DNA from: a virus
Virus record (IMG/VR): IMGVR_UViG_3300032291_001217
Coordinates: 1 to 39,531 of that record
Length of the DNA stretch: 39,531 nucleotides
Direction: 5' to 3' (one strand)
The notes under the pieces: generated by a model
The model's input: only the letters and a program-made list of their open reading frames with translations
Told to the model about the DNA's origin: nothing
The model's database searches: none
In this document: piece by piece, positions 8,408 to 39,059 of the stretch
Numbering within the stretch: the stretch's first letter is position 1
Layout of the letters: each line of letters opens with the position of its first letter
Translations under genes and position numbers: made by a program

Positions 8408-9250
8408 TTAGGTTGTGAACCTCATTGCGGTTGCAAAGATTGTTCCTGCAGGAATTGTCCCTGCGGTTGAGCCTTTTCCGATTATGTTGTATTCGACAAC
8501 ATCCGTTGCTATTGGAAAGAAGTTTGTTGCAATCAAAGCACCAGTTCCAGTTGTTGATCCAAGGCTATTGATTGAAGCAATCACAATATCTCCAAGCTGA
8601 CAAGGCAACGCAAATGTGCCAGTTGTGGTATCGTTAGCAGCGTGTGTCTGAACTGTAGCCCCAGTAAAGGCAAACGTGCCATAGGAAACATTTGTTATTT
8701 TTGGGCCAGTGCTACTGGTTGCAACTTGAAGCGTGCCAACCGTGGCAAGTCCAGTATTGTTGATCGTCGTGGAAGCAATCGTTCCAATCGTAGTCGTCCC
8801 GGTAGACATGGTCACGTTAGTTCCAAATGTTACCGGACCAAGCTGGAGAGGGATTGTGGCAGTGCTAATTGTAGCAGTGCTAATTGTGGCTGTGCTAATT
8901 GTAGCAGTGCTGATCGTTGCTGTGCTGATAGTTGCCGTGCTAATTGTAGCAGTGCTGATTGTTGCGGTACTGATCGTAGCAGTGCTAATGCTGGCAGTAG
9001 CTATCGTTGTTGTGCCTGTTGAAAGAGTGGTATTGGAGCCAAACGTGACCGGGCCCAGGAGCGTCGAAGCACCATCCACCGCAAACGTTCCGGTGCTCTT
9101 GGCCCCTGTGGTGCATATCTGAAGAGCTGAAACTCCAGCCTCGTCGCCACTGGAAATGGCTCGCATGGTTCCGTCGACAATATTGCTACCAAACGTCTTT
9201 AGAAGTTGGGTGTAGCTTGTGCTAATTGTCTGTGTGCCAAGTGTTGCCAT
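8408..9250 (-). CDS. Tail fibre protein with ISTAT pentapeptide repeat
   Basis: A 280-residue fibre-like protein with a striking shaft: nine exact units of Ile-Ser-Thr-Ala-Thr, encoded by a 15-base repeat at 8853-8987 plus a degenerate tenth unit. The shaft is flanked by two related blocks (L-G-P-V-T-F-G-x-N-x-T-x-S-T-G-T-T-T-I). The N-terminus contains I-S-T-S-Y-T-Q-L-L-K-T-F. The C-terminal 70 residues form a globular beta domain starting near C-Q-L-G-D-I-V-I-A. The pentapeptide repeat suggests a beta-helical or triple-stranded shaft whose length could vary by slippage. The start overlaps the previous stop by one base. Confidence 0.75.
   Translation of the reverse strand: MATLGTQTISTSYTQLLKTFGSNIVDGTMRAISSGDEAGVSALQICTTGAKSTGTFAVDGASTLLGPVTFGSNTTLSTGTTTIATASISTATISTATISTATISTATISTATISTATISTATISTATISTATIPLQLGPVTFGTNVTMSTGTTTIGTIASTTINNTGLATVGTLQVATSSTGPKITNVSYGTFAFTGATVQTHAANDTTTGTFALPCQLGDIVIASINSLGSTTGTGALIATNFFPIATDVVEYNIIGKGSTAGTIPAGTIFATAMRFTT
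8853..9002 (-). repeat. 15-base tandem repeat encoding ISTAT units
   Basis: Nine units of 15 bases run from 8853 to 8987, with a degenerate tenth to 9002. The plus-strand consensus is attgtagcagtgcta, with scattered changes mostly at third codon positions of the minus-strand frame. The units differ from each other, so the array is not the product of a very recent slippage. It encodes the fibre shaft and also creates long shadow frames on the plus strand. Confidence 0.9.
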
Positions 9251-25642: not shown

Positions 25643-25719
25643 TTTGTTAGCTTGTCGCAGTAGATTGCCATCAATCCAAAAACAACTACCCAAACAATAA
25701 TTGCGAACCAACCGTTCAT
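25639..25719 (-). CDS. 26-residue membrane peptide
   Basis: An ORF of 26 codons with one membrane segment (G-W-F-A-I-I-V-W-V-V-V-F-G-L-M-A-I-Y) and a basic end (C-D-K-L-T-K). Both ends are fixed by ATGA overlaps: 25719-25716 with the hydroxylase stop and 25642-25639 with the next start. This double coupling is the main evidence that it is translated. Confidence 0.6.
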   Translation of the reverse strand: MNGWFAIIVWVVVFGLMAIYCDKLTK

Positions 25720-26279
25720 CTCCACTGCCCCCCGGTTAGCCAGGCGACCAGGACCCACCTAGAGCCAAAGAACACTGGCAGTGCCTGGTGCTTTATGTAG
25801 GTAGGAAACATAGTTGCCGATCCCCGCTTCTTAACATCCTTGGCGTTATGCAAATCACACTCAACCCGCAATCCTCCGCCGAGAAACTCTGATGGATCTG
25901 ATAGGTTGATCACCATCGTTAGCTTGCGATCGCTGCCGTCGAAGCAGTCGAAGTGTGGCAGGAAAAACTGCCCGGGCCTGTAGCGCAGAATCTGCAGTTG
26001 TTGCATCCCGGTAATGTCTAGCCTGTAGTGCTGTTGGTTTAGATCCCCGGCCATGTTCCTCACCACTTCGTATAGCCACTTGTAATGTTCCGCGAACGGC
26101 ACCCAACACGACGAGCATGTCCTGGTGAACGCGGCCCGGGTTGTTCCGTCCTTATTCATGATGTGAGATCTCTTCATGCCTATGACCTGGGCGTCATCGC
26201 GGATCATGTTGCACTGGTGCTCAGTCAACACGTCCGGCTCGCACACTGCTGTAAGGATCTTTTGTTTGAAGTTATCCAT
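25716..26279 (-). CDS. 2OG-Fe(II) dioxygenase (prolyl hydroxylase-like)
   Basis: A 187-residue enzyme with the double-stranded beta-helix motifs of the P4H/PKHD group. The iron ligands H109-F-D111 come after R-Y-R-P-G-Q-F-F-L-P, the distal ligand is H164 (Y-I-K-H-Q-A-L-P-V), and R174 (G-S-R-W-V-L-V-A-W) binds 2-oxoglutarate. L-G-G-G-L at 133-137 lies between them. It would hydroxylate a protein, sugar or nucleobase using oxygen. It lies next to two glycosyltransferases; a joint modification path is an inference. The start overlaps the upstream gene by eight bases. Confidence 0.85.
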   Translation of the reverse strand: MDNFKQKILTAVCEPDVLTEHQCNMIRDDAQVIGMKRSHIMNKDGTTRAAFTRTCSSCWVPFAEHYKWLYEVVRNMAGDLNQQHYRLDITGMQQLQILRYRPGQFFLPHFDCFDGSDRKLTMVINLSDPSEFLGGGLRVECDLHNAKDVKKRGSATMFPTYIKHQALPVFFGSRWVLVAWLTGGQWR

Positions 26280-26526
26280 TTGCTATCTCCTTGAGCGCGG
26301 TCTTCAGCGCGTACTGGAACAGTGCTTCCTTGTCGTTAGCGATATGGACGCGCCCGGCCTCAACGATTGATTCGTACACATCATCGTCAACATCAAGATT
26401 TAATTCGTAGCAAACAACTTTCTTCTCAGAAACGATTCTGATTAGATCTGTTTTAGGTTTGCCTGGATTTCTTTTGTCTTTGCCAGGATATCTTCTGGCT
26501 TGATTGACTTTAGAACGTTGCACCAT
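26272..26526 (-). CDS. Hypothetical small protein
   Basis: An 84-residue protein. The first 30 residues are basic (R-R-Y-P-G-K-D-K-R-N-P-G-K-P-K); the rest is an acidic domain with N-L-D-V-D-D-D-V-Y-E-S-I-V-E-A-G and a terminal helix K-E-A-L-F-Q-Y-A-L-K-T-A-L. ATG 26526 has GGGAG about nine bases upstream, so the 85-base overlap with the glycosyltransferase end appears real. No family recognised. Confidence 0.6.
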   Translation of the reverse strand: MVQRSKVNQARRYPGKDKRNPGKPKTDLIRIVSEKKVVCYELNLDVDDDVYESIVEAGRVHIANDKEALFQYALKTALKEIANG

Positions 26527-27506
26527 TTGGGTTCTCCCTGTATTGCGTTGACCGCGTCTTTACATTTGTCCTTGGGTTGCTCGTACACCGAGCATGGGGC
26601 GTGGGGACAAACATCTTTAGGAAAGATTGGCTTCACATACTTGTAGTACTTCGACGTGTGCTCAGGTCCGTAGGGTCCGTACAGTCCAACGGTTGGAGCG
26701 TCGAATATCGCTGTCATGTGCATGATTGCCGACTCCGGGCAAACTGCCATGTCGCAACGCGCGGCCAGATGCATTAGCGTCCTGACGTTGCGTAGTCTTC
26801 CCTGGAGATTGATGAGCCTCTGATGCGTGATGGACAGGGGAGGATCGTCATGGCCCACTGCTACGACTTGCCAATCCTTGTTCTCCTTTAGGAACGACTT
26901 GATGAACAGCCCCGCCTCGTATGTTGGGTAGCTCTTCCACAGGCTAGATCCGCTGATCGAATAGAGCAGGAACGGTCCTTCCGGATGAAATCCAATGTCG
27001 GCAAGCTCGTTCTGGTCCTTGTCCAGTAGCTTTGCGTAAGGCTTCTTAAAGTTGTCGTCGACCTCGACGCCCCAGGATCTGTAGACGTAGTCGTAAACGT
27101 TTCCGTCCAGGTGCGCTGTCTTTGATAGGATATCGTCCAGGCATACGTGGCCCTTGTAAGACTTCCAGGTGGCAATCGTAGGAGCCAACGGCATGACCCT
27201 GACTCCGGCGAATCCTTCCCACAGTGGCAAGTGCCGTTGCGGAACGTAAGCCTCGATCCTTCCGTCTCCCTCGTAGTGTTGCATGGCCCTGGCTATGCCC
27301 ATAGCGATGAACTGATCCCCGATCGCTCCACCGCGGTACAGGCAGGCATATCCTCCGGAAGCGCAACCAACCCGGTACGGAATTGTGTACGCGTCAGCGT
27401 GTGTGCCAGGAACCCCGCGGACCTCGTCCGGTACTACGATTGAATCGTGTGGATGATGCAAACGATCGTCCAACATCATGGGATCTTTTAGTGTCAATAT
27501 TCTCAT
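26442..27506 (-). CDS. Glycosyltransferase family 9-like (heptosyltransferase type)
   Basis: A 354-residue GT-B protein. The N-terminal nucleotide-sugar transferase motif Y-R-G-G-A-I-G-D-Q-F-I-A lies at 57-68. The C-terminal donor half has A-A-R-C-D-M-A-V-C-P-E-S-A-I-M-H-M-T-A at 248-266 and then P-T-V-G-L-Y-G-P at 271-278, the GT9 signature in which LPS heptosyltransferases bind ADP-heptose. Four Cys near 300-330 could bind a metal. In a phage it could alter the host LPS core or decorate virion or DNA. It is joined to the GT8-like gene by ATGA. Confidence 0.8.
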   Translation of the reverse strand: MRILTLKDPMMLDDRLHHPHDSIVVPDEVRGVPGTHADAYTIPYRVGCASGGYACLYRGGAIGDQFIAMGIARAMQHYEGDGRIEAYVPQRHLPLWEGFAGVRVMPLAPTIATWKSYKGHVCLDDILSKTAHLDGNVYDYVYRSWGVEVDDNFKKPYAKLLDKDQNELADIGFHPEGPFLLYSISGSSLWKSYPTYEAGLFIKSFLKENKDWQVVAVGHDDPPLSITHQRLINLQGRLRNVRTLMHLAARCDMAVCPESAIMHMTAIFDAPTVGLYGPYGPEHTSKYYKYVKPIFPKDVCPHAPCSVYEQPKDKCKDAVNAIQGEPKWCNVLKSIKPEDILAKTKEIQANLKQI

Positions 27507-28147
27507 GGTAGTACCTTGTCCATTTCCTCAATCCACTTCGCGCGGTCGTCTCCGTAGATCCCGGCTGCGTGTGGCATGAATCCGTCTGACTGCTTCTTGT
27601 CCTTCGGGGTATTGATCTCCATCGCATTCCATTCCCAACTCAGGAAACGAATGGAGTAACCGAGCATCCTGGCCCGGTAGTTAGTGAAGGTCTGCTCCGG
27701 GAACGCGAACGGTGCGTATACGAAATTGGCCCAGGCGCCTGCGTGTTGCTTGTCGCAAACCATCACCCCGGTGTTGAAATAGCCCTGGGTCCACTTGACC
27801 GATCCGAGCATTGCCTGAGATAGGATCATCTCGTTGGCCCGGCCCCAATGTAGCTGGTCACCGTGAGGCGCGTCGGCGCAGGCATAGAAGTGTCCCTGGG
27901 GAAAAGTCTCGAATGGGTTTACGCACTCGCGCGAGATCAATACATCGCTGTCAACGAATAGGGTTCTGTCAGCATTCTGCACCGCATCGACTAGCGACAT
28001 TTTGGCTAGCAGTCCGATCGGCTTCTCTGGTTTAATGACCACAAGATTTGCGTCCCACCGCTTAGATGATTCTTCCATCCTTGGGAGGGAATGCTTCTCA
28101 AACCATTCCGGCAACTGGCAACTAACTGTTACTATTTGCCTCTTCAT
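27503..28147 (-). CDS. Glycosyltransferase family 8-like
   Basis: A 214-residue GT-A protein: D-S-D-V-L-I at 66-71 is the metal-binding D-x-D, G-Y-F-N-T-G-V-M-V at 122-130 is a typical GT8 block, and E-Q-T-F-T-N at 151-156 is the usual E-Q-x-x-x-N. P-H-A-A-G at 192-196 gives the third metal ligand histidine. It would transfer a hexose from a UDP-sugar to an unknown acceptor. GGAGG precedes ATG 28147; the start overlaps the previous gene by 26 bases. Its partner GT9 gene follows immediately. Confidence 0.8.
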   Translation of the reverse strand: MKRQIVTVSCQLPEWFEKHSLPRMEESSKRWDANLVVIKPEKPIGLLAKMSLVDAVQNADRTLFVDSDVLISRECVNPFETFPQGHFYACADAPHGDQLHWGRANEMILSQAMLGSVKWTQGYFNTGVMVCDKQHAGAWANFVYAPFAFPEQTFTNYRARMLGYSIRFLSWEWNAMEINTPKDKKQSDGFMPHAAGIYGDDRAKWIEEMDKVLP

Positions 28148-31384: not shown

Positions 31385-31819
31385 TTATATTTTAGATAAA
31401 CTCATCCAGGCAATAGAATCTTCTGGAGATGCGGTGCAAGTTGCTTTTAATTTTCTTGAATCAAATACCCACAGCAAATCCTTGTCCAGCGCAACCAGGA
31501 ATATTAGATCGATGCACTTGCCGTACTGCCTCTTATCGACTCCGCGCCCGGTGCTGAACTTGTAGCTCGGGCCCCTTCTGCCACTGTCGTGCAACCGCGG
31601 GGCGCCACAAGACTTAACCTGGATTCTTTTGAATATCCCATTCCTCTCCGCGACAATATCGTACCCGGCGTTGTCCTCGAATGGGGTCAACACGTTCCAC
31701 CCGGAAGCGAGGAGTCCTGCAATTACCCTGGCAACTCCAACCGCTCCTGTCTGACGATTACCCGGTTGGAGCATTCCCGAAAAGTCGATATCTGTTCGAG
31801 ACTCTGTTTTGAAGACCAT
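31385..31819 (-). CDS. PD-(D/E)XK endonuclease-like protein
   Basis: A 144-residue protein. It contains G-A-V-G-V-A-R-V-I-A-G-L-L-A-S-G-W-N-V, P-F-E-D-N-A-G-Y-D-I-V-A-E at 46-58 and F-K-R-I-Q-V-K-S at 63-70: the D-x-n-E/Q-x-K order of the PDDEXK_9 / intron-endonuclease-like group. ATG 31819 is one option; TTG 31855 and ATG 31774 are others, and none has a good ribosome site. It overlaps the lysozyme end. A third nuclease in this region, it may target host or rival DNA. Confidence 0.65.
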   Translation of the reverse strand: MVFKTESRTDIDFSGMLQPGNRQTGAVGVARVIAGLLASGWNVLTPFEDNAGYDIVAERNGIFKRIQVKSCGAPRLHDSGRRGPSYKFSTGRGVDKRQYGKCIDLIFLVALDKDLLWVFDSRKLKATCTASPEDSIAWMSLSKI

Positions 31820-32582
31820 TGAGGAACTTTTTACGTTCCGGGTTCTGTTCCGCAAGCCTTCTCTCGTAGGTCATCTGCTCGACAGAAACGTTCCTCATTA
31901 CCTCTGATGGGTTTAATCCCTCCAGGGCCTTGAGCGTCTGAGGCCCAAGCGCTCCGTCATCCTTCACCCCAATCGCGCGTTGCAGGAACTTTGTCGCCCC
32001 TCCTACCCCTCGGTTGAATGCCAGGTCCTGGAAGAAGGGCCGGTAAGGCTCGGGAAGTTTAGACGTGAAGGGCTTAGTATATTCTACGACGTACCTGGCA
32101 GCTGCGTCCCGGCGTTCTCCAGGAGGAAGATTCTTCAGCATCTGTGCGGCCGCGGGGTGGTACTTGTCATTGATCCCGGCGACTTCGTAGCTCCCGCCCA
32201 TATCCCCGGAAGGGAGATTGTAGACCATGACGTTCCCGGACTTGTCCTTCCTGGCCTCCATGTCAACTGTTGCCAGGGCTGAGTCGTATTCGTTCTTCGG
32301 GACCTTCGGTCCGATTAGGTTTTGGTCTTGCATAATGTTTTTAGTCACTTCGTCCTCCATTGCTCTTTGCGCTGTTTCTGCCCGGATATCATCCATCGTC
32401 GCAGCCGACCGCATGCGCTCAGACATTGCGACCAGGCGCTGGCCCTTCTCGTCCGTCCACCCCGCCCTCTGTGGCTCCTGCATTTGCCTGGATGCGTTTT
32501 GCCTGTCAAATTCCCCGGCCCCAAATGGGGTAAAAATTCTGCTTGCGCTTAGTTCCGGGATCTGTGTTAGAATGCTTGCCAT
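31758..32582 (-). CDS. GH108-like lysozyme with peptidoglycan-binding end
   Basis: A 274-residue protein. After an extended N-terminus (1-95), E109 (V-D-M-E-A-R-K) matches the catalytic Glu position. D-M-G-G-S-Y-E-V-A-G-I-N follows at 127-138, then F-F-Q-D-L-A-F-N-R-G-V at 183-193 and a PG-binding part L-Q-R-A-I-G-V-K-D-D-G-A-L-G-P at 200-214. This is the GH108 plus PG_binding_3 layout. Coming after the internal virion genes it may be virion-bound and act at entry, or be the main endolysin. ATG 32582 has AGGA about nine bases upstream; the frame to 32642 is rejected. Confidence 0.8.
   Translation of the reverse strand: MASILTQIPELSASRIFTPFGAGEFDRQNASRQMQEPQRAGWTDEKGQRLVAMSERMRSAATMDDIRAETAQRAMEDEVTKNIMQDQNLIGPKVPKNEYDSALATVDMEARKDKSGNVMVYNLPSGDMGGSYEVAGINDKYHPAAAQMLKNLPPGERRDAAARYVVEYTKPFTSKLPEPYRPFFQDLAFNRGVGGATKFLQRAIGVKDDGALGPQTLKALEGLNPSEVMRNVSVEQMTYERRLAEQNPERKKFLNGLQNRVSNRYRLFGNAPTG
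32565..32573 (+). promoter_or_regulatory. Extended -10 promoter, probably giving a leaderless mRNA
   Basis: TGTTAGAAT at 32565-32573 is an extended -10 element. A weak -35-like TTGCGC lies at 32543-32548, 19 bases upstream. The expected start of transcription, about seven bases after the -10, falls at the ATG of the plus-strand gene (32581). No ribosome site precedes that ATG. A leaderless message is therefore likely if the promoter is active. Confidence 0.45.
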
Positions 32583-32853
32583 GAAGAAAATCCTATTGGT
32601 TACAGCATTATCACTCAGTCGTTGTTTCGCCGGGGATCTCACAGATGCAACCGGGAACTACGGTGGTTCCGTCTACCGCACTTCCTACAGTACATCCACA
32701 GGGGAATACGGTGGTTCCATCTTTAGGAACAGGAATCTCTCCGACGCCTCCGGAAACTACGCTGGATACCTCACAAGGAATGGAAGCATTGTCGACGCCA
32801 AGGGAGCCTACGGAGGTTTTATTTCTAGGTTTGGAGATACTGACGTCGAGTGA
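32581..32853 (+). CDS. Secreted GxYxGxxxR repeat protein, only plus-strand gene
   Basis: A 90-residue protein. Residues 1-17 form a signal peptide (M-K-K-I-L-L-V-T-A-L-S-L-S, cleavage near A17-G18). The mature part is four repeats of G-x-Y-G/A-G-x-V/I/L-x-R at 25-33, 41-49, 58-66 and 75-83, spaced 16-17 residues. Repeat Gly and Arg codons differ synonymously (GGG/GGA, CGC/AGG), as expected for selection in this frame. The gene fills the gap between the giant protein's stop and the lysozyme start; its ATG shares CATG with the lysozyme ATG. The repeat recalls short beta-repeat proteins of bacteria. It may be a moron expressed on its own. Confidence 0.7.
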   Translation: MKKILLVTALSLSRCFAGDLTDATGNYGGSVYRTSYSTSTGEYGGSIFRNRNLSDASGNYAGYLTRNGSIVDAKGAYGGFISRFGDTDVE

Positions 32854-32859
32854 GGTCAT
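32611..32859 (-). CDS. Antisense ORF to the secreted repeat protein
   Basis: An 82-codon frame whose ATG overlaps the giant protein's stop as ATGA and has GGAGG seven bases upstream, the standard coupling signal of this genome. The product is Val/Gly/Thr/Pro/Ser-rich (G-E-I-P-V-P, P-C-G-C-T-V-G, P-G-C-I-C-E-I-P-G) and looks less like a folded protein than the plus-strand reading. It may be translated, or be a by-product of the repeat on the other strand. Kept as a low-confidence alternative. Confidence 0.3.
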   Translation of the reverse strand: MTSLDVSISKPRNKTSVGSLGVDNASIPCEVSSVVSGGVGEIPVPKDGTTVFPCGCTVGSAVDGTTVVPGCICEIPGETTTE

Positions 32860-35800
32860 TTTTTAGCCTCCAGTTGTTTTTTAATTAGCCTAGACTTTAC
32901 TGCTGATTCGAGGTCTTGAGTCTGAACATTTCTGGCAGTTGCGCCTCGAACTCCGCGTCCAGTTCGTCCGTCACCGTCCTGTCGGGCCACGCCACGCTCA
33001 GGTAGTTCTCCCGCGTTAGTGGCAGTCCCTCCCTCAGTAGGAACCTGACCGCTCCGTCTTGCCCAGCTAGGGTCTTCAATTCCTCCTGCGAATTTGCTGA
33101 TTGTGTCTCTTGCTTCATCTATTTTTACCTTTCCTTTAGTATAGCTCGACCACACGTCGTCGACAAATGCTTTATTTTTAGCCTGGCCCTTAAACGTCGG
33201 CTTGAATAGGCCACGGATTGCCTCCCAGGTGATGCTTTGCATTTCCCGCGGGAGCACCCCTCGCTCCTTCGCTGCGTTCCTGTAAGCCTCGGCAAATAGT
33301 GCATAGGTACCAGAGGCGCCGACGATTTTAGAAGAGGGTCCTCCGCCAAGATTGTGAAGTACCTCCGTAGACCCACCGGACAGGGGCCGGAGTAGCCCGG
33401 CCGCGACTGCATGCGTATCAATTGTGACGTCTCCAAATTTGGAATTTGGCTGGAGAATGTTGTTGAAGAAGTTCCTGACTTTATGCTCTTCGCCAAGCTG
33501 GTTGTGGATGTTTTCCCTTGCGCCATTCCCAAGAATGCTAATGCCCTTCTCGATCTGTGGGAACGATCCCCATGCCACCTTCCCTTCGCTTCCGTCGTCG
33601 TTGAGCTTTTTGCCAAGAGTCTGTCCGTTCGGACTGTAAACGTCGAATGACCTGGAATTGTTTACCTCGTCCCAGGCCCTTAAAAACACTGCCTTGTCAA
33701 ATGTGTCGCTGATCTGATCATATCTCTTCCCCAACAAATTCTTCTTCGCGGCCTTTGCCAGGATCGCTCTTTTGGGATCAGACTTCAGCCAGTTAAACAT
33801 TTCTTGAGAAAATACTTCTTTCGACTTATTGGTATTAATGTCGATAACCCTGTTTGCCAGGGATACATTCATAAACCAATCCTTCTGGGGCGATAGGACT
33901 GCGAGCACCCCGGCATTCTGCCTAGTATTAGTGCCATACTTGCCAGCCCACTCCTCAGAAATCTTCCTGGCTCCGTCGTACCACTTCTTTGCCTCTTCGC
34001 GCAGTTCCGGCTTAAAAGAGTCGTAAAGGTATAAAAGATTGCCCTTAACGTGATCGACGAATTCACCAAGGATTCCTTCGGTCGTTTTGCTCTTTGGGCT
34101 AAAGCCAGGATACTTCTTAATGAGATCTGCCTGTTTTTTTGCTAGTTCTTTGTCTTTTAGGATTACGTCCAGGCCAATCGTCAGCTTCTCTGTTAGCGGA
34201 TTCTCTGTTGCCCTTACTGCCTTTGGATTCCTCTGACTGACCCAAAACTCTTCGTCTTTTATCTCTTCCGGACTGGCAGGCGCAAACTGCTTCTGCTCCT
34301 CGCCACCGATTAAGCTAGTAAACTTTGGTTCATTCTTGGCAGTACCGGAAAACTCTTTCTCCATCTCCTGCATCTTACGAACCCCGGCGACAACCTCTGG
34401 GGTAATATCAATCTTCCACATTGGAATTTTATCCGGCTCCACAATTCTTGAGCCAGGATTTGACTTCATTGATTCCATTGCGCTTTTCTTGCCGTCCATT
34501 GGCAACGTCCTGCCATCCTGGGTTATTACATAGTAACGGTCGTTTGTTATGGACGACTTCTCTACAGGGGCTCCGTACTGCTTCATGTACTTGCCGATCT
34601 CGGATGGCAACATTTCGTCATAAAACTTTGCCATTCCAGCCTTGCTGTTTTCGGCCATGCCAGGGTATCTTTCCTGTTGCTCTGCGCCTACCGTCCATCC
34701 AATCCATTTCTTCCCTGAGTCAACTGCTTCGGCCAGGGCCCTTTTGAACATTTGAATCGGCCAATCTTTCCGGAACGGTGCGTCCGGTACGCTTTTGTAC
34801 GGATCTATCTTGCTCTCTCCCTCTGCCCTGTACCATCTCGTTTGATCCTCTCTGCTTAACTTGTCAAATTCAATTGGATCACCGTACTTCTTTCTGAATT
34901 CATTTTCTAATTTTACCAGACTATCATCCTCTTTATATCCGTACTTTCTTCCTTCCTGGTGCCTATCGCTTTGAATCTCTTCAATGAACAACCCATCGCG
35001 TCCGGCGGAGTCTGGTCTTTCGTCCAGGCGCATGTGCGCGATATAATCAGTAACCTTTGGGTAATGTTTCGATATGTATGCTTTTTCGATCGGGCCTTCC
35101 GGGAGTTTTGCGTCGTATTTTCTCGCCATGTCGACAATTTCCTGCGTGACGGTATCATTAAATTCAACCACCCTGTCGTTCATCGAGATATCGTCACCGC
35201 TAATTCTTCCGTAATCCAACTCATCAAGCCCGGCTGCGCTTATGTCTGTGAGGAAATCGTCCGCATCTTGCGCGTTCTTGAATTCAATTTTATACGGTCC
35301 TTCTCCCCTGACTCCCGACTCCTTCTTTTTAGAAAGCACAACTTCTCTGTAATTTTTTCCTCCAGGGATCGTGTACCCTCCAAACCTTGGCGCATTCCCT
35401 GATACTGAGGCCCTATCAAATTGCTCTGCCCTTGCGTTCAAGTGCTCTGCTTTTTTCATCATGCGATCAAAAGTTTCGTAAATCTTGCTTTCACCGATTT
35501 TCCCAAGATTTGTTGGAGAATTCTTTAGGAATGCCCTTGCTTCCTCTTCTGCAGCCATTGCCATCCTTGTGAGTTGGCTGGATGTGGAAATATTGTCGCG
35601 ACGATTCTGTAAATCCATCATCTCTCCGTAGGCACCATCGCCCATCTCGTCGTCCATTCCTCCCAGGGGATTAGCTGAATCTGCAACCTCAAGCTCATTC
35701 AGTCTTACAATGTCCTGCTCGTTTAAGGCAGTTTTTGAGCCTTTTGCTGAACCGTATCTTGTCTCTTCAAGCTGGACCTTGCCCCTTCCAGCCAGGAATT

Positions 35801-38800
35801 CTTCCAGCTTATCTCTTGGTACTTTCCCTGCGTTTTCACTTGCAAGTCTATCAATCTCTTCATTAATTCCTGACCACTTAATATCCTCCTCGTTCACCCC
35901 GCGAGTCTGGCCTGGCTTAATAATTGCCTTTACTTGCTCCGGAGTGGCAAGTCTTGGCATCTTGTCGCGAATAGCCTTCTGGAGCGACACATCTCCAGGC
36001 GCCAAGTTCGCAGCCTGCTTCTGGTAGTCGAAGAAGAATCCTGTGCGCCCGGTATCGCGAGAGTTGGCGATACGGTCTAGGCGATAGGATTTTACCAGGC
36101 TCCCCGGGGGGCGTCCTTCGGCTGCGTACATGGGATTCGCATTTTTGTTGGCAATGTTTGTGATGCCGAATAGGTAGTTGATCGCGTTGCGCTTATCGAT
36201 ACCGATCCCTGTCTCCCCGGGCCTTTCGTTGGCATGGTTGTCCAGGTACTGCATGACGTCCTTCTCGTAGGACGCCAGGTCTCCGCCCCACACCTCGTTG
36301 ATCCGGCCCTTGCCACTCCTGGCAAAATCAAGCATGCGACCGCGCAGAGCAGATATGTCCACTGCCTGGGCCAGGATGTTCCCGGCCTTAGATAGACGCC
36401 AACCCAGGAACGCGATTTCGGATTGTCCAACCTTAATGTTGCCTAGTCCGCGCTTAACAGACTGAGCCCAGCTACCATCCTCGCCTGTGCCGACCTTTTG
36501 GTACCAGACAGAATATGTCTTACCTTCCTTGCGACTATCTTGAAGGGCCTTGGCTACTTCCTTTGTGAAATCATTAAAACTGTCGAGACTGAAGAATCCC
36601 TCTGGCAACGTATTGCCTCCGACGTATGGTTTGCCGTCGGACTGAATTTTGACGCCAAACTCAGGGCTCCCGCGTTCAAGGACAGCGTCAGGATTGTAGA
36701 GGCGCCCAACGTCCGCTACCCGGGCCTTGTCAACTGCCAGGATCGATGCCGGGTCCTTGGCTCGGACAGTGCCGTCCGGGAACCTGACAGCAAAATCGTT
36801 CTCCTCAAGATTTGTCTTCCTGTTGCGAGTAAACTGGATCGCTGGATTGTTCGCCAGGTTCCTGTTGCCCGGCCCAGGAACTAGCGTCACGTCCTTCTGC
36901 TTCTCTGCCTTCTCTAGTCCGTCAAGATACTTGTCGCGGTCCCGGAACCATCTTGCGGTCAATTCACGAAGTTGTTTGGATGGAACCAGGGGGTTATCCT
37001 TGAATAGCGTGTCAATATTCGTCGGCTTAGGCCCTGTCGTATCGATCCCGAACTTATTCAAAAGCCTTCCAACAGGGGCCAAGAATCCTTCCTGGAGAGA
37101 TAGAAGATTCGTTCCTGGCAAGGTTCTGCGACGAAGTGAGTCAAGATCCCTACCGCGGGACTCGCCAACAAACTGCTCCGCCAGGACCTCGTCCGCGATC
37201 CAATCGAGATCCCCGGCGCCAGGCTCGGACCGCTGAGACGCTTCTCGTAGCTCGTTCGCCTTGGCTCGCACTTCAGCCTCGGTTGGTGTGCCTCTTCCCT
37301 GGCGCTCGCCCTCCAGAAGTTTCCTGGCGTACTCGTTCCCTCTCCTGCGAAGCCCTTCTTCACCGTATTCAGTCATAACTGCCATACGACCCTCGGACTT
37401 ATTAATTGCCGGGGACTTCTGAATTGCGTGTAAAATCTCATGTCTCACCGTGTCTCCGGTAGACCTCTTGTCGTCCATGTTAATCAGCAGTCTGAATTTT
37501 CCGCTCCTGTCCTGCACTCCCTTGACAACTCCGGCCGCGTTGATCCCGGCATTCTCTGGCATCATGAATGAATCGCGACTATGGAATTCAACCTGGACGT
37601 CAGGAGCCATCATCTGGAGAGTCGCGGCGTCTAGGAATGGACGATTATCCTTGCGGACATAGTCGGCAATCTTGTTTACGTCTAGGCCAAGATCCGCCTG
37701 CCTTGCAAACAATCTGTTGACGTCACCCTGCTTTGCGAGCGCCTTCTTTGCCGGGATCGCTGCGACTCCCTTGACCGCTCCGCCAATTCCTCCAAGACCT
37801 CCTCCAATAACCAATCCACCTCCGATTCCTTCCTCTTCCCCGCCTGACGCGACATAGCCCAACCCTGCGCCGACGGCCGCAGATTTGACAGCGCCCTTGC
37901 CTGTCTCCAAGCCAAGTTCCGCGGCCCCTTGCGTGATCGGAGAAGATACGATCGAGGTGTTCGCGGCCTTTCTAAGCCACTCAGGATTCTTCTGGTTCTT
38001 CGCGACGCGCTCCATGACGGTCATCCTGGACGGTCCTGTCATCGCCTCTTCCCCGGCGATTCGCACTGCCTGGGCTCCGCGTTCAGCGATCTCCGCCCCG
38101 GCCCTAACTCCGGCAACCTTGGCTCCGATTGGGAATGCCCCGGGGATGCCTATTGCGGCCGCTCCTGTGGCGATTGCTCCTGCAGTCTTTGGCGCAGTTA
38201 CGCCAGGGAGAACGCGCTGGATGCCTTGTCCAACCTTTTCAACTCCAAGATCAATGGCTCCGCCTGTTGCCCGGGCCGCTGTCTCAATCCCTCCGGCGAT
38301 TTTAGTTGTGGCGCCTAATCCTCTTCCGGCAACTCCGGTTGCCTTGGCTCCAGGCCCAATGAATGGAACTGCGAGCGTAGGATCTAGTACCATGCTCGCG
38401 GCCTCCGCGGCTTTTGGTGCAAACGTTCCTTCCGGCAATCCGATAATGCTTTTCCCCTGAGCCCTTTCGGCATTCATCTTGTCGATCGCCTGCATCTGAT
38501 AGTTTTGGTCGATCGTCTTCTGGTTTAGGTAGGACTTGTAGTCGTCCTGCAACCCGAGCGCTCCGGCCGCCATGAATGGAGCCTTTTCAATAAATTTAGA
38601 CGCTCCAACTGCCATGGTTCCAAGGTCAACAGTTCCCCTGGCCCCGGCCTCAAGCAGTGTAGCCGGAAGAGAAGGATCGCCCGGCCTTGGCTCACGCATC
38701 GATGCCGTTTTGATTAGCTCAGGGATGCCTTCTTTAATTACAGGGCCAAAATATTCCGCGGCACCAGCCATTGCCCCACCAATTCTGCTCATTGCCCCTG

Positions 38801-39059
38801 GCTCAGTAGCCTTCAAAATGGAGAATTCTTCTTCGCTAGCTACAAATGTAGGATCGGATTCGTCCTGAGATCTTAGAAATGACGAGGTCGACGCCTCATC
38901 CATAACAGGCTTGGAGTCGACGAATGAAACTCCGCCTTGGTATGCGTTGTGGACTAGTGACGCTTCTTCTTGCGTGAACTCAAAGTTCGGATTGTCGCGA
39001 TACTGGCGCAGCAAATAATTTGCTGCCTCCAATGGGTCCTGGATGATTTCGTCGGCCAT
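32856..39059 (-). CDS. Giant internal virion / polyvalent protein with HExxH protease motif
   Basis: A 2067-residue protein. Residues 1-220 are helical. Residues 220-440 are Ala/Gly-rich with glycine-zipper membrane-like stretches (near 295-320 and 390-435), suited to a channel. A zinc protease motif H540-E-I-L-H544 has a possible third ligand near 624-628 (D-E-V-L-A-E-Q-F). A polyvalent-protein segment lies near 1330-1465 (I-E-E-I-Q-S-D-R-H-Q-E-G, then W-T-V-G-A-E-Q-Q-E-R-Y). A C-terminal domain near 1640-1985 has L-A-V-L-S-P-Q-K-D-W and T-I-D-T-H-A-V, resembling DUF7178-type, glycosylase-like domains. It is probably carried in the head and ejected with the DNA, to cut cell-wall or host proteins and protect the genome. 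Confidence 0.8.
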   Translation of the reverse strand: MADEIIQDPLEAANYLLRQYRDNPNFEFTQEEASLVHNAYQGGVSFVDSKPVMDEASTSSFLRSQDESDPTFVASEEEFSILKATEPGAMSRIGGAMAGAAEYFGPVIKEGIPELIKTASMREPRPGDPSLPATLLEAGARGTVDLGTMAVGASKFIEKAPFMAAGALGLQDDYKSYLNQKTIDQNYQMQAIDKMNAERAQGKSIIGLPEGTFAPKAAEAASMVLDPTLAVPFIGPGAKATGVAGRGLGATTKIAGGIETAARATGGAIDLGVEKVGQGIQRVLPGVTAPKTAGAIATGAAAIGIPGAFPIGAKVAGVRAGAEIAERGAQAVRIAGEEAMTGPSRMTVMERVAKNQKNPEWLRKAANTSIVSSPITQGAAELGLETGKGAVKSAAVGAGLGYVASGGEEEGIGGGLVIGGGLGGIGGAVKGVAAIPAKKALAKQGDVNRLFARQADLGLDVNKIADYVRKDNRPFLDAATLQMMAPDVQVEFHSRDSFMMPENAGINAAGVVKGVQDRSGKFRLLINMDDKRSTGDTVRHEILHAIQKSPAINKSEGRMAVMTEYGEEGLRRRGNEYARKLLEGERQGRGTPTEAEVRAKANELREASQRSEPGAGDLDWIADEVLAEQFVGESRGRDLDSLRRRTLPGTNLLSLQEGFLAPVGRLLNKFGIDTTGPKPTNIDTLFKDNPLVPSKQLRELTARWFRDRDKYLDGLEKAEKQKDVTLVPGPGNRNLANNPAIQFTRNRKTNLEENDFAVRFPDGTVRAKDPASILAVDKARVADVGRLYNPDAVLERGSPEFGVKIQSDGKPYVGGNTLPEGFFSLDSFNDFTKEVAKALQDSRKEGKTYSVWYQKVGTGEDGSWAQSVKRGLGNIKVGQSEIAFLGWRLSKAGNILAQAVDISALRGRMLDFARSGKGRINEVWGGDLASYEKDVMQYLDNHANERPGETGIGIDKRNAINYLFGITNIANKNANPMYAAEGRPPGSLVKSYRLDRIANSRDTGRTGFFFDYQKQAANLAPGDVSLQKAIRDKMPRLATPEQVKAIIKPGQTRGVNEEDIKWSGINEEIDRLASENAGKVPRDKLEEFLAGRGKVQLEETRYGSAKGSKTALNEQDIVRLNELEVADSANPLGGMDDEMGDGAYGEMMDLQNRRDNISTSSQLTRMAMAAEEEARAFLKNSPTNLGKIGESKIYETFDRMMKKAEHLNARAEQFDRASVSGNAPRFGGYTIPGGKNYREVVLSKKKESGVRGEGPYKIEFKNAQDADDFLTDISAAGLDELDYGRISGDDISMNDRVVEFNDTVTQEIVDMARKYDAKLPEGPIEKAYISKHYPKVTDYIAHMRLDERPDSAGRDGLFIEEIQSDRHQEGRKYGYKEDDSLVKLENEFRKKYGDPIEFDKLSREDQTRWYRAEGESKIDPYKSVPDAPFRKDWPIQMFKRALAEAVDSGKKWIGWTVGAEQQERYPGMAENSKAGMAKFYDEMLPSEIGKYMKQYGAPVEKSSITNDRYYVITQDGRTLPMDGKKSAMESMKSNPGSRIVEPDKIPMWKIDITPEVVAGVRKMQEMEKEFSGTAKNEPKFTSLIGGEEQKQFAPASPEEIKDEEFWVSQRNPKAVRATENPLTEKLTIGLDVILKDKELAKKQADLIKKYPGFSPKSKTTEGILGEFVDHVKGNLLYLYDSFKPELREEAKKWYDGARKISEEWAGKYGTNTRQNAGVLAVLSPQKDWFMNVSLANRVIDINTNKSKEVFSQEMFNWLKSDPKRAILAKAAKKNLLGKRYDQISDTFDKAVFLRAWDEVNNSRSFDVYSPNGQTLGKKLNDDGSEGKVAWGSFPQIEKGISILGNGARENIHNQLGEEHKVRNFFNNILQPNSKFGDVTIDTHAVAAGLLRPLSGGSTEVLHNLGGGPSSKIVGASGTYALFAEAYRNAAKERGVLPREMQSITWEAIRGLFKPTFKGQAKNKAFVDDVWSSYTKGKVKIDEARDTISKFAGGIEDPSWARRSGQVPTEGGTATNAGELPERGVARQDGDGRTGRGVRGATARNVQTQDLESAVKSRLIKKQLEAKK
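32897..33118 (-). CDS. Small phage protein overprinted on the giant gene's 3' end
   Basis: A 73-residue protein in a different frame, wholly inside the giant gene. It contains R-F-L-L-R-E-G-L-P-L-T-R-E-N-Y-L-S-V-A and then D-E-L-D-A-E-F-E-A-Q-L-P-E. This T-R-E-N-Y-L ... E-x-E-A-x-L-P-E pattern recurs in small phage proteins found beside virion genes. AAAGGAAAGG lies 9-17 bases before ATG 33118. In this zone the giant protein becomes Gly/Arg/Thr-rich and disordered, as expected if this frame is the constrained one. Confidence 0.7.
   Translation of the reverse strand: MKQETQSANSQEELKTLAGQDGAVRFLLREGLPLTRENYLSVAWPDRTVTDELDAEFEAQLPEMFRLKTSNQQ

Follow-up and report, generated by a model that had tools for sequence, protein, structure and literature searches.

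Why does a phage genome that is otherwise read from one strand carry a single short gene facing the other way, placed between a giant protein and a lysozyme and opposed by a second open frame? The locus belongs to the IMG/VR virus record IMGVR_UViG_3300032291_001217, and the whole stretch of 39,531 bases was analysed here (the window). Its minus strand holds every identifiable large gene, including those for the major head protein, head-tail adaptor, terminase, primase/helicase, exonuclease and RusA, in agreement with the first-pass annotation, which had seen the genome as otherwise read from that strand. A group of minus-strand genes at 25716-28147 encodes a 2OG-Fe(II) oxygenase and two glycosyltransferase-like proteins (a GT9/heptosyltransferase and a GT8-like protein below the cut-off), and is likely to represent envelope- or DNA-modifying cargo. 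Adjoining the 3' end of the lysozyme ORF is the ORF of a PD-(D/E)XK nuclease (31385-31855), which would overlap it by about 100 bases if read from its TTG start; the true start probably lies further in. The lysozyme frame also has a further upstream GTG at 32642, within the plus-strand gene.

Table 1. Positions of the plus-strand gene, its putative signals and its neighbours in the window.
Feature	Position	Strand	Basis
Lysozyme with PG_binding_3 domain, downstream neighbour, late strand	31758..32582	-	PF09374 6e-10; phrog_315 1.3e-16
Possible -35 TTGCGC, weak, spacer 19	32543..32548	+	sequence only; GCTTGC invariant in relatives
Candidate extended -10 TGTTAGAAT, predicted +1 at 32580/32581	32565..32573	+	sequence; conserved lysozyme codons CTA ACA CAG
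Exported repeat protein CDS, allele A, 90 aa	32581..32853	+	open frame; intact in 19/19 copies; pN/pS 0.09-0.27
Apparent signal peptide MKKILLVTALSLSRCFA	32581..32631	+	by eye; nearly constant over three alleles
AGGA, likely lysozyme Shine-Dalgarno, within signal-peptide codons 4-5	32591..32594	-	sequence
In-register antisense frame, 82 codons, ATGA start, TGA stop	32611..32859	-	open in 19/19; sequence unconserved; TCA avoidance
Exported domain, four hairpin repeats (predicted), part swapped between alleles	32632..32850	+	AlphaFold2, eight strands, pLDDT 86.6; allele comparison
Giant 2067-aa protein, upstream neighbour	32856..39059	-	DUF7178 1.4e-28; 3' part mosaic among relatives (identity profile)
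GGAGG Shine-Dalgarno before antisense frame, 7 nt upstream of ATGA	32867..32871	-	sequence; GAGG in four giant C-termini

The plus-strand gene, its junction and its promoter

The product of the plus-strand ORF (MKKILLVTALSLSRCFAGDLTDATGNYGGSVYRTSYSTSTGEYGGSIFRNRNLSDASGNYAGYLTRNGSIVDAKGAYGGFISRFGDTDVE) begins with MKKILLVTALSLSRCFA followed by GD, and contains exactly four GxYxGxxxR units (GNYGGSVYR, GEYGGSIFR, GNYAGYLTR and GAYGGFISR), which confirms the signal-peptide protein of four repeats described in the first-pass annotation. The apparent signal peptide was judged by eye, and its cleavage would probably occur after CFA. Relatives were collected from IMG/VR by a protein search (ten relatives), by a pattern search with the promoter plus start (17 contigs) and by an independent lysozyme search, which gave 18 loci with lysozyme identities of 87-97%. 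The gene is intact and in the same place in all 18 of the latter and in the window (19/19), a sample in which some loci are nearly identical. Within alleles (see below), the pN/pS of the exported part in the plus frame is 0.09 for allele A, 0.17 for B and 0.27 for C (raw Nei-Gojobori proportions), and all ten sites of this part that differ between the window and one relative (L030) are synonymous in the plus frame and nonsynonymous in the minus frame. Its intactness in every copy and this purifying selection make the ORF more than a chance occurrence: it is a genuine gene. Relatives with a broken plus frame and a conserved minus frame had been named beforehand as the finding that would speak against it, and comparison of the two strands revealed the opposite, with the plus frame intact and constrained and the minus frame drifting. 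No convincing homologue of the protein was found in sequenced phages, bacterial genomes, PDB sequences or folds, and NCBIfam gave no match near a cut-off. The plus frame also stays open for 354 bases 5' of the ATG, antisense to the lysozyme (a 208-codon ORF, 32227-32853, plus strand), and automatic annotation could therefore call the gene too long.

The gene fills the gap between its neighbours as first described: the stop of the giant gene extends to 32856 and that of the plus gene to 32853, and the plus-strand ATG shares a CATG with the lysozyme ATG (32582-32580). Among distant relatives (L047-L108, lysozyme identity 44-60%), 13 junctions were listed, and in all of them the upstream stop overlaps the lysozyme ATG or lies within about 12 nt of it and the plus gene is absent. 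In the window clade, about 277 bases intervene between the giant stop and the lysozyme ATG, and an ATGA start at the giant stop opens the antisense ORF. Because the distant relatives lack the gene and have the upstream stop abutting the lysozyme ATG, the gene is an insertion: it entered a tight stop/start junction and reads from the other strand. The empty junction is new beyond the first-pass annotation and strengthens its proposal of a moron, as do the presence of the gene in all close relatives, its own promoter-like element and its opposite strand.

The last T of TGTTAGAAT lies at -7, placing +1 at the plus-gene ATG or the adjoining base, and the sequence before this ATG contains no Shine-Dalgarno. 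Only three copies of TGNTANAAT exist on the plus strand of the 39.5-kb window, and its occurrence just before the plus gene is hence unlikely by chance. The lysozyme codons CTA ACA CAG, which write CTGTGTTAG, show zero synonymous variation in 17 distinct lysozyme sequences, in which 187 of 260 degenerate lysozyme codons vary overall; TAGAGT replaces TAGAAT in three of the 17. Since the element sits within lysozyme codons, we downgraded its conservation as proof of a promoter, and consider it suggestive of an extended -10 that serves the plus gene. A sigma-70 scan requiring also a -35 box did not call the promoter. The sequence is consistent with the leaderless promoter proposed earlier: the spacing is right, the element is conserved and a Shine-Dalgarno is missing, but the element lies within lysozyme codons, its -35 is poor and the sigma-70 scan was silent. 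Elsewhere in the window, TGCTACAAT occurs three times in 84 bases (8868-8951, minus strand) within ORF 8408-9250, so that the window has 9 extended -10-like motifs where 3.2 are expected; the triplet is probably an internal repeat.

Exchanged alleles and the predicted fold of the exported domain

Three alleles of the exported domain, missed in the first-pass annotation, are found among these phages: A, carried by the window, B (LLLDETGTYSGML...) and C (IIQTSGGEYAGYI...). The last two share 36-43% identity with A, and the promoter and signal peptide are nearly constant before all three. Two signal-peptide types, LLVTALSL and LLLVVLSLGH, each occur with A, B and C, while on the other side the giant C-terminal type KKQLEAKK is found with A, B and C, EEAKK with A and B, and RGVQ with B and C. 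Moreover, four relatives (L035, L037, L040 and L041) carry an identical or nearly identical allele B next to lysozymes that diverge at 17-38% of synonymous sites, and between phages of different alleles identity falls over 32595-32858 and recovers on the lysozyme side. The shuffling of alleles against both flanks and the local drop of identity show that the cassette moves between backgrounds by recombination among related phages. The giant gene is itself a mosaic towards its 3' end (32881-33860 and the corresponding region in L029-L046): when phages with similar lysozymes are compared, this part either shows 80-95% identity or cannot be aligned, with the break near the giant stop, and the same ATGA closes several different C-terminal modules.

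The AlphaFold2 models of alleles A and B (pLDDT 86.6 and 87.1), built from alignments of the mature proteins, each show four hairpins formed from eight short strands, in agreement with the strands and hairpins of a beta-flower. Proteins of this kind have 8, 10 or 12 strands with four-, five- or six-fold symmetry, carry a [DNEQ]xxG motif at their tips, are related to Tubby-like domains and are in some cases possibly membrane-associated (PMC10584680). The tip motif is present in three of the four repeats of the window protein (DATG, DASG and DAKG; the fourth has TSTG). A search of the repeat against short beta-repeat families, suggested in the first-pass annotation, recovered a weak similarity to the Pfam family Bflower_2 that stays below the Pfam cut-offs: six of 12 members matched (best 1.6e-4; consensus 7.5e-6), the consensus reaching 26.2 bits against a gathering cut-off of 38 for PF21785 and 16.2 against 25 for PF21784, and the window protein itself had zero matches to either. 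Weak matches to phrog_18536 were obtained for 10 of 12 members, the best viral fold match was an unnamed 83-aa phage protein (E=0.0024, allele B), and the fold search among solved structures gave nothing close to the exported domain. We predict the protein to be beta-flower-like but outside the Pfam families as such, a likeness absent from the first-pass annotation.

The antisense frame

The opposite ORF of 82 codons, with ATGA coupling and a GGAGG, is present as first reported (32859-32611). The GAGG before its ATGA is kept in four different giant C-termini, and its TGA stop, 28 nt before the lysozyme ATG, corresponds to plus codon 11, which is TCA in 17 of 17 sequences. Because it is in register with the codons of the plus gene, the frame can be closed only by TTA, CTA or TCA on the plus strand, and it is uninterrupted in every one of the 19 copies, which span three diverged alleles. 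Phage codon usage gives a chance of 6-23% per copy, or 7-19% per allele, for such an open frame, which also occurs in 14-19% of 72-codon stretches of this phage's genes; in one sequence alone, an open antisense frame of this length is not surprising. TCN codons of the plus gene end in A in none of 16 columns, compared with 12 of 31 for other NCN codons (p=0.004), the columns being not fully independent owing to shared descent, recombination and internal repeats. In the lysozyme, used as a control, the corresponding values are 7 of 12 and 46 of 76 (p=1). However, GTA and CGA are also missing from the plus gene and TCC is favoured over TCT and TCG, which means that the bias goes beyond stops. 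The absence of CTA and TTA was dropped as a sign of stop avoidance, GTA being equally absent, and the TCA contrast alone was kept. Codon 5 of the signal peptide, which forms part of the lysozyme AGGA site, is CTA in 16 of 17 sequences and CTG in one.

What keeps the minus frame open may be explained in several ways. A functional protein, encoded alone or beside the plus gene, is highly improbable: the ATGA coupling, the Shine-Dalgarno and the openness of all copies would suit it, but the changes in allele A are all minus-nonsynonymous, the minus-frame ratio is 0.7-1.1 in B and C, and the minus peptides of the three alleles are unrelated apart from their ends. A conserved minus-strand protein was rejected on this substitution pattern together with zero family matches, and the idea of a second gene is not supported: the sequence drifts even though frame, start and stop are kept. 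It seems probable that the frame is open by chance, through few Leu and Ser codons, a local preference for TCC/CTC and the shared descent of the alleles; the frequency of such stretches in other genes of the phage, the unconserved peptide and the other missing A-ending codons all agree with this, while the openness of all three alleles, the avoidance of TCA and the conserved start, Shine-Dalgarno and stop do not. These same features would be accounted for if the frame were a ribosome bridge, on which ribosomes coming from the giant gene reinitiate at ATGA, translate through the backward gene and terminate shortly before the lysozyme, which would stay translated and escape Rho-type polarity whatever the peptide. 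The low chance per allele, the lack of TCA bias in the lysozyme control, the GAGG in four giant C-termini, the invariable stop codon and the tight coupling of the ancestral junction would favour such a bridge; the non-independent columns, the additional codon bias, the lysozyme's own AGGA and the lack of any sign that the host terminates transcription by Rho-type polarity speak against it. We regard the bridge as rather unlikely, and chance with codon bias as likelier. That selection keeps a meaningless antisense frame open as a bridge to the lysozyme, and that the exported domain is at the same time exchanged as a cassette, is a slightly more doubtful combination. No clear precedent for an antisense bridge frame was found in the open-access literature. 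If the bridge is real, a backward gene can live inside a coupled operon, and where compact genomes contain antisense frames that are open but not conserved, neither 'overlapping gene' nor 'noise' is an adequate reading.

Function and likeness to known systems

Our best explanation, which we hold with a little less than even confidence, is that the gene is a moron with its own promoter and encodes an exported, beta-flower-like envelope or exclusion factor whose alleles are swapped. The gene, inserted backwards between the giant late protein and the lysozyme, would be transcribed from its extended -10 into a leaderless or nearly leaderless mRNA, we infer before or outside late transcription. The product would be exported, fold as the predicted small four-hairpin domain, and most likely act in the infected cell's envelope, where it would block or alter a target at the surface or in the periplasm, in the manner of small superinfection-exclusion proteins. 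Its three alleles, behind one common promoter and signal peptide, would be exchanged via recombination in the conserved flanks, as might be expected if target specificity is under diversifying selection. An envelope-acting role agrees with what is seen of the protein: it is small and apparently exported, its gene has the position of a moron, its alleles are swapped, and it is likely to be expressed separately. An early exported envelope or superinfection-exclusion factor is the most likely function that we infer, and the host-surface change proposed in the first-pass annotation appears plausible in view of the apparent export and allele swapping. This explanation is compatible with the ribosome bridge, and both can be true.

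The main functional rival is a protein that aids lysis or entry together with the neighbouring lysozyme on the cell wall instead of acting in exclusion. It adjoins a peptidoglycan-binding lysozyme, as such a helper might, but its opposite strand and separate promoter put it outside the late operon, and swapping affects the exported domain but not the lysozyme; we consider this role improbable. Somewhat less improbable, though still unlikely, is the earlier suggestion that the plus gene is silenced when the minus strand is transcribed late in infection. The presumed late transcript spans the whole gene, which faces the opposite way, a geometry that would nevertheless result from any opposite-strand insertion.

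The locus offers a compact natural case in which a phage has added a gene backwards in a tightly coupled operon while both strands continue to work, and its three natural alleles can serve as replicates. In addition, a beta-flower-like protein, with a fold to which no function has been assigned, is here found in a phage, where its part in infection can be studied.

Among known systems, morons consist of an extra gene and a promoter-like element between genes that are neighbours in relatives, and the same is seen here. The plus gene differs from them in its opposite orientation, the in-register open antisense frame and allele swapping, and no plus-strand terminator-like site was found downstream of it; many described morons carry their own terminator, which is not required of all. 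Antisense overlapping genes (for example PMC9927249) are two opposed open frames on the same DNA, as in this locus. Both products of such a gene pair would be expected to be under purifying selection; here, protein-level constraint is confined to the plus frame and the minus frame drifts. The T5 protein Llp and Rtp45 are small exported superinfection-exclusion proteins made early (PMC9586334, PMC12685063), and the plus protein resembles them in being small, exported, phage-encoded and probably made apart from the late genes. However, they are lipoproteins with known outer-membrane targets, whereas no lipobox is found in the signal peptides of the relatives (LSRC, LGHC, LGRC, FGNC and LSHC have R, H or N before Cys), and the plus protein has no sequence similarity to these or other known exclusion proteins; they serve as working analogies, not relatives. 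With the beta-flower families PF21784 and PF21785 it shares antiparallel hairpin repeats (as predicted), the tip motif, apparent export and a weak profile similarity. It departs from them in falling below the cut-offs, in a mature length of only 72 aa without lipobox or central helix, and in being encoded by phages that carry it as three swapped alleles.
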